From the NCBI GenBank assembly GCA_023078555.1, contig CM041202.1, positions 1,546,022 to 1,610,021 on the forward strand: a DNA stretch of 64,000 nt, given 5' to 3'. This document shows positions 1-49,966 of this stretch, piece by piece. The translations under genes were made by a program, and so were the position numbers. How positions within the stretch are numbered: position 1 is the first letter of the stretch; each line of letters opens with the position of its first letter. The notes under the pieces were generated by a model that saw only the letters and a list, made by a program, of their open reading frames with translations, had not been told where the DNA came from and ran no database searches. The stretch comes from Ulva prolifera. Lineage: Eukaryota; Chlorophyta; Ulvophyceae; Ulvales; Ulvaceae.

Positions 1-14
1 TGCAGCAGCGGCAT
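1..14 (-). CDS. 5' end of a second WD40-repeat gene (partial, cut by window edge)
   Basis: The first 14 bases, read on the minus strand, give ATG and then codons for P-L-L and the start of Q. This is the same start as the complete WD40 gene that ends at 11,130. The DNA to the right of both start codons is also homologous over about 4 kb. The gene body lies to the left of the window, so nothing can be said about its repeats or integrity. It is called by homology of the flank, not by its own coding content. Confidence 0.5.
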
Positions 15-9462: not shown

Positions 9463-11130
9463 TCAATCGCGGCGACCGGCAAGGCTGTAGATGCGCACAG
9501 TGCCATCGTTGGATGCCGTGAGGGCTGAGTTCCCGTCAGGGCTCCATGCTACCGAGTTGACAAAATATCTGTGCCCCCGCAGCTCATGCATGCGTGTGCC
9601 AGTGGCTGCGTCCCACACTGCAGCAGTACCGTCAACTGACCCCGTGGCCACCCTGGACCCGTCAGGGCTCCATGCTACTGAGTTGACCCAATTGCTGAAC
9701 CCCCGCAGCTCATGCACGCGTGTGCCAGTGGCCGCGTCCCACACCGCAGCAGTGTTGTCACCTGACCCCGTGGCCACCCTGGACCCGTCAGGGCTCCATG
9801 CTACTGAGTTGACCCAATTGCTGAACCCCCGCAGCTCATGCACGCGTGTGCCAGTGGCCGCGTCCCACACTGCAGCAGTGTTGTCACCTGACCCCGTGGC
9901 CACCCTGGACCCGTCGGGGCTCCATGCTACTGAGGTGACCCGACTGCTGTGCCCCCGCAGCTCATGCACGCGTGTGCCAGTGGCCGCGTCCCACACTGCA
10001 GCAGTGTTGTCACCTGACCCCGTGGCCACCCTGGACCCGTCGGGGCTCCATGCTACTGAGTAGATACAAAGGCTGTGCCCCCGCAGCTCATGCATGCGTG
10101 TGCCAGTGGCCGCGTCCCACACTGCAGCAGTGTTGTCATGCGACCCCGTGGCCACCCTGGACCCGTCGGGGCTCCATGCTACTGAGTTGACACAACGGCT
10201 GTGCCCCCGCAGCTCATGCATGCGTGTGCCAGTGGCCGCGTCCCACACTGCAGCAGTGTCGTCATTCGACCCCGTGGCCACCCTGGACCCGTCGGGGCTC
10301 CATGCTACTGAGTAGACACAACGGCTGTGCCCCCGCAGCTCATGCATGCGTGTGCCAGTGGCCGCATCCCACACCGCGGCAGTGTTGTCATTTGACGCTG
10401 TCACGAAAGTGCCCCCCGAGGGAGACACGGCTACGTCCATGACCGCTTCTTTTGAAACCTTGATGCTCTGCCCCTTGACAGACTCCCGCGCCAGCATGGC
10501 CTTTGCCACAGCCTTCACCCTCGCCGGGTCAGCGGTGCGGACGTCCTCTAGCTCCCGCACCTGCAGCTGCCGCTGCAGCTCCCTAACTGCCGCAGCTGTG
10601 TGCTGTGCTTGCTCTTCGCTCTGCTGGCTGCGAAGCAGCGTCGCAAGACTCATGTAGGGGTTCACATCGTCGAAGCGGTTCCTCAGCTGCCATCGCTTCT
10701 CATTCATCAGCTTCTCAACACTCGCCGCCTGCCGCAGCCTGGTGATCGTGCTACACTGCAAGTACGTGTACATCGCGATGCGGGCCTCGTGCAGGGAACC
10801 GCAGACCAATTTGAAGCACAGCAGCAGCGCCTGGTTGAGATCGGCAGCCCCTTCAGCCTCCGGGAAGAGCTGCCCGAGGCGGAGGAGCTCGCACACCACG
10901 GGCAGGCGGGTGATGGTAGTCCGCTGGATGTCCTTGCAGATGTCTTCGCACATGCCGGCGGCGATGGTGGCCTCCTGGAGGGACTGGGCGGCCTTCAGCA
11001 CCTGCCCCGCAACTTCCATCGGGCTGATGCTGCACGAGACAGTGACGAGGGCAGTGCCGACGGCGAGGTCCACCTGGCCCGCCGCAACACCCACTTCCAG
11101 CGCCATGACTGGGATCTGCAGCAGCGGCAT
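9463..11130 (-). CDS. Intronless WD40-propeller protein with MLKL/HeLo-like helical N-terminus
   Basis: A single open frame of 555 residues. Residues 1-165 are helical and Cys/Leu-rich. They contain EDICKDIQRTTITRLPVVCE, then LNQALLLCFKLVCGSLHEA, then RFDDVNPYMSLATLL. This spacing resembles the four-helix bundle at the start of MLKL and HeLo-type effectors, but I judge it by pattern only. A charged coiled-coil-like linker (about 165-224) follows. Residues 225-555 form eight WD40 blades: a half unit, seven units of exactly 42 residues sharing TAAVWDAATGTR.HELRG and SVAWSPDGSRVATGS, and a degenerate end. The units differ almost only in three or four residues after the HELRG step (SRC, SRC, SLC, SSR, SNW, SNW, RYF) and in the residue after ATGS. 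The DNA of the units is also nearly identical. There are no introns, unlike the genes from 20 kb on. Partner and pathway are unknown. By analogy with fungal NWD receptors it could be a recognition protein (inference). Confidence 0.85.
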   Translation of the reverse strand: MPLLQIPVMALEVGVAAGQVDLAVGTALVTVSCSISPMEVAGQVLKAAQSLQEATIAAGMCEDICKDIQRTTITRLPVVCELLRLGQLFPEAEGAADLNQALLLCFKLVCGSLHEARIAMYTYLQCSTITRLRQAASVEKLMNEKRWQLRNRFDDVNPYMSLATLLRSQQSEEQAQHTAAAVRELQRQLQVRELEDVRTADPARVKAVAKAMLARESVKGQSIKVSKEAVMDVAVSPSGGTFVTASNDNTAAVWDAATGTRMHELRGHSRCVYSVAWSPDGSRVATGSNDDTAAVWDAATGTRMHELRGHSRCVNSVAWSPDGSRVATGSHDNTAAVWDAATGTRMHELRGHSLCIYSVAWSPDGSRVATGSGDNTAAVWDAATGTRVHELRGHSSRVTSVAWSPDGSRVATGSGDNTAAVWDAATGTRVHELRGFSNWVNSVAWSPDGSRVATGSGDNTAAVWDAATGTRVHELRGFSNWVNSVAWSPDGSRVATGSVDGTAAVWDAATGTRMHELRGHRYFVNSVAWSPDGNSALTASNDGTVRIYSLAGRRD

Positions 11131-47100: not shown

Positions 47101-49966
47101 CGTTCACACCTGACGTGCAGTTCAATGCAAGCAGTGGCTCTTCTCTTTTGTGTCCCACCCCTCCCCCCTTCCCCCCCCCCTCCCGTCCATGATTCGACAG
47201 CAGTGCAACGTGTGGATGCGTGCTGTTGTGTCGATGACGTACATATGACACCTGTATGTGTCACTGCAGGCGTGCAGCCCGAAGCAGGTGATGCTGGACG
47301 TGGCCAACGCGGAGGGCCGCGGCACCCGCACCAACGCTGACACAGATCAGCCATGGCGGCACCTCCTGTCGCCCTGTGGCCCCGCCGCCCCCCCAGAGCC
47401 TGCCGCCGTGCGGCCCCCTGCAGCTCCCAGCACCCGCACTGGCGGAGGACCGGACGCAGGGGCGGGCGGAGGCGGAGGGGTGTCTGTGGAGAGACCGGGG
47501 CGGGCCCCCCGCAGGGCCGCGCATGAGCACGCGGTGAAGGTGCCACGGCGGCGGGAGCTGACGCCGCCGCGGCGGAGCGCGTCGGCGCAGCCGGTGCCGG
47601 AGCCGCTGCTTGACGTGGCCGTGGTGCACTCGGGTTTCGCCGCGACCATGCGGGCTGCCAATGGAGACGTTGGTGCGGGCGCGGCACGCGCAGCGCGCGC
47701 AGCACAGGCGGTGCGCACCTCCGCCACCTTCAGCACATGGGCGCTCGGCCTGCATGCTCAGGTCACGCCCGCACCGCAGCACAGCGCACGTCTTCTGCTT
47801 CTGTGTTTTTAATGTATTCGTTTAACGATGAGAATCACCGTATTTTGACTTACACTTCAAGCCATTACCAGATGACAGTGTACATCCAGTTCACGCCAGC
47901 GCAACAGGAAAGCGGCCGTCGGGTGCACGCCACCACCACAGCACAGCACAGCGCACGTCAGGTGCACGCCACCACCACAGCACAGCGCACGTCTTCTGCT
48001 TCTGTGTTTTTAATGTATTCGTTTAACGATGAGAATCACCGTATTTTGACTTACACTTCAAGCCATTGCCAGATGACAGTGTACATCCAGTTCACGCCAG
48101 CGCAACAGGAAAGCGGCCGTCGGGTGCACGCCACCACCACAGCACAGCACAGCGCACGTCAGGTGCACGCCACCACCACAGCACAGCGCACGTCTTCTGC
48201 TTCTGTGTTTTTAATGTATTCGTTTAACGATGAGAATCACCGTATTTTGACTTACACTTCAAGCCATTGCCAGATGACAGTGTACATCCAGTTCACGCCA
48301 GCGCAACAGGAAAGCGGCCGTCGGGTGCACGCCACCACCACAGCACAGCACAGCGCACGTCAGGTGCACGCCACCACCACAGCACAGCGCACGTCTTCTG
48401 CTTCTGTGTTTTTAATGTATTCGTTTAACGATGAGAATCACCGTATTTTGACTTACACTTCAAGCCATTGCCAGATGACAGTGTACATCCAGTTCACGCC
48501 AGCGCAACAGGAAAGCGGCCGTCGGGTGCACGCCACCACCACAGCACAGCACAGCGCACGTCAGGTGCACGCCACCACCACAGCACAGCGCACGTCAGGT
48601 GCACGCCACCACCACAGCACAGCGCACTTCAGGTGCACGCCACCACCACAGCACAGCACAGCACAGCGCACATGATGCTGACTACGCGCTGCTGCCCCTA
48701 GCGCCGCCTGGCGTACAGGGCTGTCCACCGGGGAAGAGGGTCGCCCTCCCGCCGCTGGACGTCCCGGCCGTGACGTGGTCGTGCGGCGCCGCGCCGGCTG
48801 CGGCCCTGCGCACTGTGCACACGCTGGCGCCTCTGCCGGGCGCGGGGGCCGGTGTCGCCTCGGCGGCGATCTCCAGCGTGACCCTGCAGAAGCTACTGAC
48901 CTCGCCGACGATGAAACCTGCCGGTGCGGCCACGCGTCGGCTGCCCGCCACACCCTCCCCCCATGGCAGCCTGAGGTGTTACACTACATACGGCACCAAA
49001 TTGTGTAGATATCTCAGGCAGGTTCTAGGCTCCTGCTCCCACCCTGGATCTGCACATCGCCCCTAGATGAGGGTGGGTCATCCCACCCACCCTAATCCCA
49101 CTCTAGGGGTTTCTACAGTGGGTTTCTAGTTTCCCACTCTAGAAACCCCTGAGCCCTATGACAGGCTCCTGCATGCGCATGGCCGTGTGCGTGAGGTGCC
49201 CGTGCTTACAGCAGCGCCTGGACAGCGGGCGCAGCGAGACGGTGCAGTCTTTGCATATTTCCAAGCCGCAGTGCCACGTGCACTGCCTTCACCGCCGGCT
49301 GCCCACCCTCCAGTGCCACGTGGCACAAGCTGGCCGTGGTGCCGTGGTGATGCGTGCGGGCATGCATAGAGCGCTCTCGCTTGGTGTCCCTTCCGGATCG
49401 AACCAATGGCTGTCGGATCGATCCATGACGTATGTTTGCATGTATGTACACATGATTGCATAGCCATGACCATGATGCAATTGACAAGTCTCGACTGTGC
49501 TGCAGGTGATGGCTCGCCCGACCCTGTTTCCCCCTGTTCCATCATGAAGCCCGCCCCCCGCGGCCGCAACCCGTCAGTTCTGTTCCAGGACGCCCTCTCT
49601 GACGACGAAGACGGCGACGGTTTTCCATGCATTCACACCGCGAACACTCCCGCCGCGGGGCCGCCGGCTGCGGCGAGCTGGGCCGCCGCGGACGGCGCCG
49701 GCGCGGCGTGGAGCGACGCGATGCGCGTCCGCCTCAAGGGCATCGACCCGGCGCCGATCGAGGAGAACCTGCCAAAGGCGACGGCGCGGCAGATGCACAT
49801 GCATGCGCTGGAGGGCGTGAGGCAGTCGGTGTTTGTCGCTTCTATGGCGGGGGTCAAGCGCGAGGCAGGGGGTCACCTGCAGGTGGAGGCTGAGGTCGAG
49901 AACCCGTGGGACGCAATTCCTTTGGACTTGACGCTGCCGGCGCTGGCGCAGGCGCACGCCTGCTGA
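44102..49966 (+). CDS. Large EF-hand protein of unknown family
   Basis: Exons read by inspection: 44,102-44,269, 44,353-44,535, 44,649-44,954, 45,541-45,717, 46,649-46,921, 47,270-47,761, about 48,719-48,980, possibly 49,208-49,340, and 49,506-49,966. The first six all join in phase 0; the last junctions are unresolved. The start MSSGQTLDSATSG is followed by a helical segment, then an EF-hand WFFLVDDDGSGSLDAEELEA whose loop has all expected calcium ligands (D1, D3, S5, S7, E12). A second, degenerate EF-hand-like helix pair follows (FWEDFKAFMTGEF), then the conserved-looking LPFGLIIKRLKRHMLLSQIM. Later exons encode basic coiled-coil (KRARLRDKKRRQMS; DVLEKDRRRTMLMSM) and long Ser/Pro/Ala-rich disordered regions. 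The C-terminus is acidic then helical (DALSDDEDGDG; GIDPAPIEENLPKATARQMH). It could be a calcium-regulated cytoskeletal or ciliary protein, but that is a guess. It might also be two genes, split near 45,000. Confidence 0.6.
45780..45921. repeat. 71-bp tandem duplication
   Basis: tacgttttcagacctgccgc and about 50 further bases repeat immediately as tacggtttcagacctgctgc, with few changes. It lies in the intron after the exon ending at 45,717. Each unit carries a TTTCAG that could act as a cryptic acceptor. Confidence 0.75.
46245..46362. repeat. Direct and inverted repeat cluster
   Basis: cctgcactgtggcagaactc gcaggagttat appears twice in tandem (about 40 bp apart, near 46,243 and 46,283). It is followed by its partial reverse complement, gagttctgtcacaatgcagg (about 46,337-46,358). 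The second and third arms could form a stem of about 20 bp. It lies in an intron of the EF-hand gene. Confidence 0.7.
47784..48600. repeat. Minisatellite: four 201-bp units in an intron
   Basis: The block starting cgtcttctgcttctgtgttt recurs at about 47,790, 47,991, 48,192 and 48,393, an exact period of 201 bp with almost no differences. Smaller units of about 33 bp (caggtgcacgccaccaccac then agcacagc) sit inside each unit and continue to about 48,670. Because 201 is divisible by 3, one frame stays open for 312 codons, but the array lies between two splice-site-bounded exons of the EF-hand gene and is best read as intron. Confidence 0.9.
49060..49152. repeat. Nested inverted repeats
   Basis: ctctaggggtttctacagtg (from 49,101) pairs with cactctagaaacccctgag (to 49,152) around a short loop, about 19 of 22 positions. 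Just before it, ccctagatgagggtgggt and its complement cccaccc...ctaggg form a second stem. Overlapping palindromes like these could be a small hairpin element. They lie in an intron of the EF-hand gene. Confidence 0.75.

Follow-up and report, generated by a model that had tools for sequence, protein, structure and literature searches.

The window, by which we mean the whole stretch of 64,000 nucleotides analysed, carries on its minus strand an open reading frame of 555 codons plus stop (9463..11130), referred to as L001, in which an N-terminal domain is joined to a WD40 propeller of eight units. The frame has no internal stop, and the Pfam scan matched PF00400 (WD40) in eight stretches of it (E 1.9e-84), in agreement with the first-pass annotation, which had described a helical-looking half and then a propeller in one frame. 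The N-terminal domain (residues 9-216; 10483..11106) is helical in low-confidence models and conserved in 14 of 14 paralogs. It is followed by a degenerate first WD40 unit (residues 218-259; 10354..10479), six near-identical 42-residue blades (residues 260-511; 9598..10353), which vary mainly at positions 11, 12, 14, 30 and 32, and a last blade (residues 512-553; 9472..9597) whose first half resembles the others and whose second half is degenerate; all of these lie on the minus strand. A 126-bp tandem array with 6.8 copies and 94% matches occupies 9532-10390. The earlier description had counted seven near-identical units; their length of 42 residues stood, but only six are near-identical over their full length. 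The triplets that it listed after the HELRG step (SRC, SRC, SLC, SSR, SNW, SNW, RYF) are all present, and the residues after HELRG and after ATGS do vary, but so do positions 14 and 32, which it had not named. Overall, amino-acid variation among the six core blades falls at positions 3, 9, 11, 12, 13, 14, 30 and 32.

The propeller is confidently predicted in the AlphaFold2 model of L001 (pLDDT of at least 90 over 300 residues), and it compares with the eight-bladed designed protein Tako8 and with human ODA16 at a TM-score of 0.95 by target length; the models were built on alignments of four sequences. As predicted, L001 is a protein of about 216 helical residues, modelled at low confidence, followed in the same open frame by a WD40 propeller. 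Consistent with the claim that the frame holds no nucleotide-binding domain, none appeared in the Pfam scans: the N-terminus matched no NB-ARC, NACHT or HET model, residues 218-553 are blades, and the best 25 of 53 families in the scan of the whole protein were all propeller or WD40 models.

The start codon of L001 is uncertain. Between Met1 and Met9 stands a splice-acceptor-like sequence, CTGCTGCAG (11116..11124, minus strand), which has a like sequence in several paralogs. Met9 aligns with a methionine in 6 of the 13 other paralogs, and an intron or exon upstream of it is possible but unproven. In seven of the 14 genes (L004, L006, L007, L008, L010, L012 and L014), an ATG stands exactly 8 bases past a CAG at the start of the frame; this spacing is 9 bases in L001. 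Four genes (L002, L003, L009 and L011) have no ATG at the spot where other paralogs have it, and the L009 frame has no methionine ahead of the domain. The CAG/ATG spacing could be explained by a phase-1 upstream coding exon or by a fixed leader. An upstream exon shared by the family was rejected, as a blastn comparison of 1.5 kb of upstream sequence from each of the 14 genes gave no common exon. Apart from matches within the tandem trio L001-L003 and short start-adjacent stretches in two pairs, this search returned only short elements in two orientations, which are apparently mobile repeats. Short elements near CTTTGTCCTTGTAACA occur in both orientations upstream of L004, L014, L009, L006 and L013, with some 400 bp between the members of an inverted pair at L004; perhaps they represent a MITE family near these genes.

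The two-part layout is that of a real, expanded family, because 14 open copies and additional fragments occur in one genome. Searches of the 88.9-Mb assembly with the whole L001 protein and with its N-terminus found at least 14 places where the N-terminus and blades share one open frame. Seven are on contig C7 (L001, L002, L003, L004, L007, L008, L014), four on C1 (L005, L010, L012, L013), one on C2 (L006) and two on C4 (L009, L011). Fragments occur on C3 (L035) and at about 2.36 and 2.386 Mb of C7. The N-terminus alone gave 16 places, 14 of which continue into blades while two are fragments. L003, L002 and L001 stand in tandem at a spacing of 11-12 kb; the 5' end of L002 (G000:C7:1544506-1546035) reaches positions 1..14 of the window on the minus strand, most of the gene lying to the left of it. 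A TGA flagged in the L007 match is the frame's own stop just beyond the last blade. N-terminal identity of the paralogs to L001 ranges from 37 to 78%. Two of the 1536 coding bases distinguish L002 from L003, both changes being nonsynonymous and located in blades (positions 12 and 40). By analogy, 14 paralogs with fragments would fit the birth and death of genes in receptor families.

Protein database searches, in each of which about 8,000 best candidates were scored, returned three relatives. One (P0002) is the same gene as L005, with 328 of 330 aligned residues identical, and the others (P0003 and P0004) show 66% and 58% identity to their best-scoring places in their own genome. The divergent paralog L013 found no relative at E 1 in the protein database, and none of the 66 pattern matches in viral contigs or the 10 in prokaryotic contigs was confirmed as a relative. 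The genome also contains 38 matches to the chlorophyll a/b-binding family, the best of which finds its nearest PDB counterparts among chlorophyll a-b binding proteins; the source is therefore a photosynthetic, green-type genome, and this, the genome size and the first-pass annotation make it in all appearance a green alga.

Across 91 blades from 13 genes, the most variable within-gene positions of the 42 were, in descending order, 12, 30, 14, 32, 10 and 11, with positions 13 and 31 conserved and flanked by variable ones. When L001-L003 were left out, the top five were 12, 30, 14, 10 and 32. The available part of one study of Podospora WD40 repeats reports four codons (7, 9, 25 and 27) under strong positive selection, arranged as one pair in the d-a loop and one in the b-c turn, on either side of conserved residues (PMC1805685); an extract of another lists, in a different numbering, seven repeat positions: 10, 11, 12, 14, 30, 32 and 39 (PMC12222747). 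If the histidine of the GH step is set at position 9, the four Podospora codons become 12, 14, 30 and 32, flanking 13 and 31. In this inferred register, and as far as these extracts go, the four most variable of the 42 positions in the family are the four under positive selection in Podospora, as had been anticipated for fungal NWD receptors, and the top six all fall within the published seven. Position 39 ranks 18th of 42 and is not variable in L001. In the AlphaFold model, positions 10-12 lie between strand d and strand a of the next blade, position 14 barely enters that strand a, and 30 and 32 are in the stretch linking strand b to strand c; the variable residues would thereby occupy one propeller face, in or beside the d-a and b-c loops. 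The comparison was made within the family only, and variability at these positions is partly typical of any WD40 surface.

Blade homogenisation is, by sequence comparison, confined to L001-L003. With L002/L003 cross matches set aside, the nearest blade lay in the same gene for all six core blades of L001, three of five in L002 and three of five in L003; among the 54 core blades of the remaining 11 genes, this held for 2. At the seven published positions, the six core blades of L001 differ by 13 nonsynonymous and 2 synonymous steps, against 4 and 3 at the other 35; the five core blades of L002 give 13 and 3, against 3 and 4. After scaling by sites, the excess of nonsynonymous change at the seven positions over synonymous change elsewhere is 7.2-fold in L001 (p 0.0005) and 5.3-fold in L002 (p 0.0015); the corresponding figures for the four positions are 7.6-fold (p 0.0003) and 4.4-fold (p 0.005). 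At twelve tolerant control positions, which are variable in the other 11 genes and include 39, L001 and L002 together show 2 nonsynonymous steps versus 26 at six of the seven positions; the six-position tests omit 39, and those with all seven and with four positions are fairer and weaker in the Fisher contrast. The Fisher contrast of nonsynonymous to synonymous steps against the remaining positions was not significant for either gene, with seven positions (p 0.16 for L001 and 0.09 for L002; pooled 0.024) or with four (p 0.155 and 0.077; pooled 0.016); because the genes are related, their tests are not independent, nor are the steps within one blade array strictly so. The collinear pairs L006/L007 and L010/L012 have dN/dS values of 0.40 and 0.68 at the seven positions, compared with 0.12 and 0.32 over the rest, and of 0.39 and 0.59 at the four, below 1. 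Diversifying selection at the published positions is only partly supported by these figures, the rate being above neutral in L001 and L002 and below 1 in the older pairs. The N-terminus, by its substitution pattern, is under purifying selection: dN/dS was 0.16-0.63 in seven of eight compared pairs, those with differences, and the eighth, L002/L003, is identical there.

The same genome holds 33 NB-ARC places over the cut-off, at C4:7317808-7529585, C6:2309179-2605766, C1:4684767-4878233, C8:5232714-5276645 and a few single places. None overlaps a family gene, and none shares a frame with a WD40 place (78 of 164 candidates scored). Eleven lie within 212 kb of C4, and L011 and L009 are in their midst, the nearest NB-ARC place being 3.2 kb from L011 and 14.7 kb from L009; the chance of 2 of 14 family genes falling within this group is 0.0005, calculated post hoc. 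By eye, four of the frames (L042-L045) show an unassigned N-terminus, then NB-ARC motifs and then LRR-like repeats, very alike among themselves, and contain no WD40 units. In seven NB-ARC genes, a Pfam scan of the sequence before the P-loop gave nothing over the cut-off, one of the seven weakly resembling RPW8 (E 0.051), and the best hit of a PDB sequence search with NB-ARC N-termini was a chimera at E 0.14. A genome search for TIR found nothing at E 0.001 (a control matched in 1 of 14), and the NB-ARC repertoire of this apparent green alga would be of non-TIR type. Few chlorophyte NLRs are named in the available parts of the literature, namely those of TIR type in Chromochloris (PMC10952240) and a single putative NBS-LRR gene in Ulva (PMC8891106); an extract of a further source records NB-WD40 proteins in the red alga Chondrus and NB-LRR proteins in Chromochloris (PMC7145615). 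CC-like domains of a streptophyte alga kill Nicotiana cells, according to an extract of PMC11218826. Given the many NB-ARC genes, this genome is a possible system for studying early stages in the evolution of intracellular immunity of the plant type.

The best single reading, and on balance a probable one, is that the L001 family comprises multigene recognition receptors without a nucleotide switch of their own. The WD40 propeller would act as the sensor, with loop-residue variation among blades and genes setting the ligand, which we infer to be of pathogen or self/non-self origin. The constrained N-terminus would relay the signal, whether it kills the cell directly or acts through partners such as NB-ARC proteins. 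Since no nucleotide switch lies in the frame, a partner or ligand-driven clustering would have to bring about activation. The closest parallel is with the fungal NWD receptors HET-D and HET-E: both have near-identical 42-residue WD40 units that are homogenised inside single genes (L001-L003 in this family), the genes differ in blade number, and variability peaks at 12, 14, 30 and 32, then at 10 and 11, so far as the Podospora extracts allow comparison. However, the family has no NACHT or HET domain, L001 has eight units whereas functional het-d/het-e alleles usually have 11 in the accessible part of PMC12222747, near-identical blades are confined to three of the 14 genes, position 39 is invariant in L001, and selection above neutrality is only partly supported. 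The frame differs from NLRs, of which the fungal ones are treated generally in PMC4986451 (available in part), in having no NB-ARC or NACHT domain to link effector and sensor. If this is a recognition family, a green alga would have converged on the fungal hypervariable-propeller solution, at the same repeat positions, and would offer a natural test of whether a response can follow recognition when no NB-ARC or NACHT switch connects the two. Among the matches listed in a literature search of titles and abstract starts, with most subscription papers outside its scope, no such algal family was recognised, and the L001 family may represent a type of recognition protein not yet recorded from algae.

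A stronger form of the recognition-receptor reading, which does not exclude it, would make each protein both receptor and executioner, its N-terminus being an MLKL/HeLo/RPW8-type four-helix bundle with a brace that attacks membranes upon ligand binding; we consider this possible, if rather doubtful. The first half of L001 is mostly helical in both models, at a pLDDT of about 30-50 in the fuller one and of 45.5 in that of the N-terminus only. Residues 37-88 form one long helix in the fuller model, so that a four-helix reading requires splitting it. The structural search suggested in the first-pass annotation did not help: Foldseek with the N-terminal model gave no match at E 0.001, and this fold search is meaningless because model confidence is so low. 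A Pfam scan of the first 230 residues of L001 gave nothing over the cut-off, and the best sequence that the N-terminal profile found in the PDB had an E of 0.18. Two of the 14 members show an MLKL_N match, located in almost the same stretch of each (E 0.0028 and 0.092; 17.6 and 12.7 bits, against a cut-off of 27), but unrelated families score equally well for single members (ComFB, 0.0028). Across the genome, MLKL_N found three sub-cut-off places, the best being a family member (L013, E 0.087), and also matched 1 of 14 control genomes below the cut-off. HeLo, RPW8 and MCAfunc found nothing in the genome, with sub-cut-off control matches in 1, 2 and 0 of 14; this profile search is lossy and its first pass loose, as it missed the weak RPW8 match (E 0.051) of the NB-ARC N-terminus mentioned above, itself a point in favour of this stronger form (1 of 7). 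The profile of the family matches that of the NB-ARC N-termini at P 0.0024 and 0.0037, compared with P 0.13-0.88 in nine reversed or shuffled controls, but the hhalign probability is only 12% and 9%; the matching stretch holds the helices after residue 95. Of the MLKL/HeLo assignment first made, the mostly helical character stands at low confidence, while the N-terminus reaches no curated cut-off.

Compared with MLKL, RPW8 and HeLo proteins, the family shares a probably helical N-terminus and the weak MLKL_N match in two members. MLKL itself pairs with a pseudokinase, not with a propeller. Compared with the NB-ARC genes of the same alga, it shows weak profile similarity over part of the N-terminus, and two of its genes lie among them on C4, but it has neither NB-ARC nor LRR. 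Fungal NLRs carry MLKL-related HeLo and Goodbye domains (PMC9815663, seen in extract). The most elaborate version, a switchless MLKL/RPW8-type bundle joined directly to an eight-bladed hypervariable propeller, with blade recombination and selection on the propeller face as sources of its diversity, working beside a non-TIR NB-ARC-LRR repertoire, is to our mind unlikely. If such a switchless one-piece receptor were real, recognition could dispense with the nucleotide switch that defines NLRs.

Alternatively, the genes could form a family of scaffolds or adaptors, such as substrate receptors or ciliary or ribosome-assembly WD40 proteins, with recently duplicated blades and unconstrained surface positions. 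The top PDB fold matches of the L001 propeller, ODA16 and the Rsa4/Notchless propellers, point in that direction, as do the dN/dS values below 1 at the variable positions of the older pairs and the non-significant Fisher contrasts for single genes. We nevertheless judge a scaffold role improbable, given the expansion to 14 members plus fragments, and the finding that in L001 and L002 the tolerant positions are nearly invariant while the published ones vary above the synonymous rate.

A further comparison is offered by the chlorophyte APAF1_C/WD40 genes, among them Ulva UM033_0004, which, in the part of PMC8891106 available, is single-copy with 13-15 repeats; the same extract proposes NB-ARC loss for the APAF1_C/WD40 genes of Ulva and other chlorophytes, and reports that transcript levels in Ulva track its bacterial symbionts. 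These genes resemble the L001 family in being green-algal and in having a domain before the WD40 units and no NB-ARC, but the family is multigene and shows no APAF1_C match (control silent). Descent of the family from APAF1-like NB-ARC-WD40 receptors that lost the nucleotide switch would suit these proposed losses, the symbiont-following transcripts (PMC8891106, in extract) and the many NB-ARC genes of this alga, yet is very improbable, as a genome search with PF17908 (APAF1_C) found nothing, a weak point since no control matched, the 33 NB-ARC places are never in frame with WD40 among the 78 of 164 candidates scored, and four of the NB-ARC frames lead, by eye, into LRR-like repeats. Recognition by multigene receptors without a switch of their own remains the reading that we prefer.

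Elsewhere in the window, a minus-strand frame at 27684-28982 matches a cyclic-nucleotide-binding domain (E 7.4e-7). A 201-bp tandem array at 47758-48596 (4.2 copies, 99% matches) lies inside a 312-codon open reading frame (47737-48675). On the plus strand, a 597-codon frame at 56514-58307 matches SepSecS, the O-phosphoseryl-tRNA(Sec) selenium transferase (E 4.3e-44), which suggests selenocysteine synthesis.
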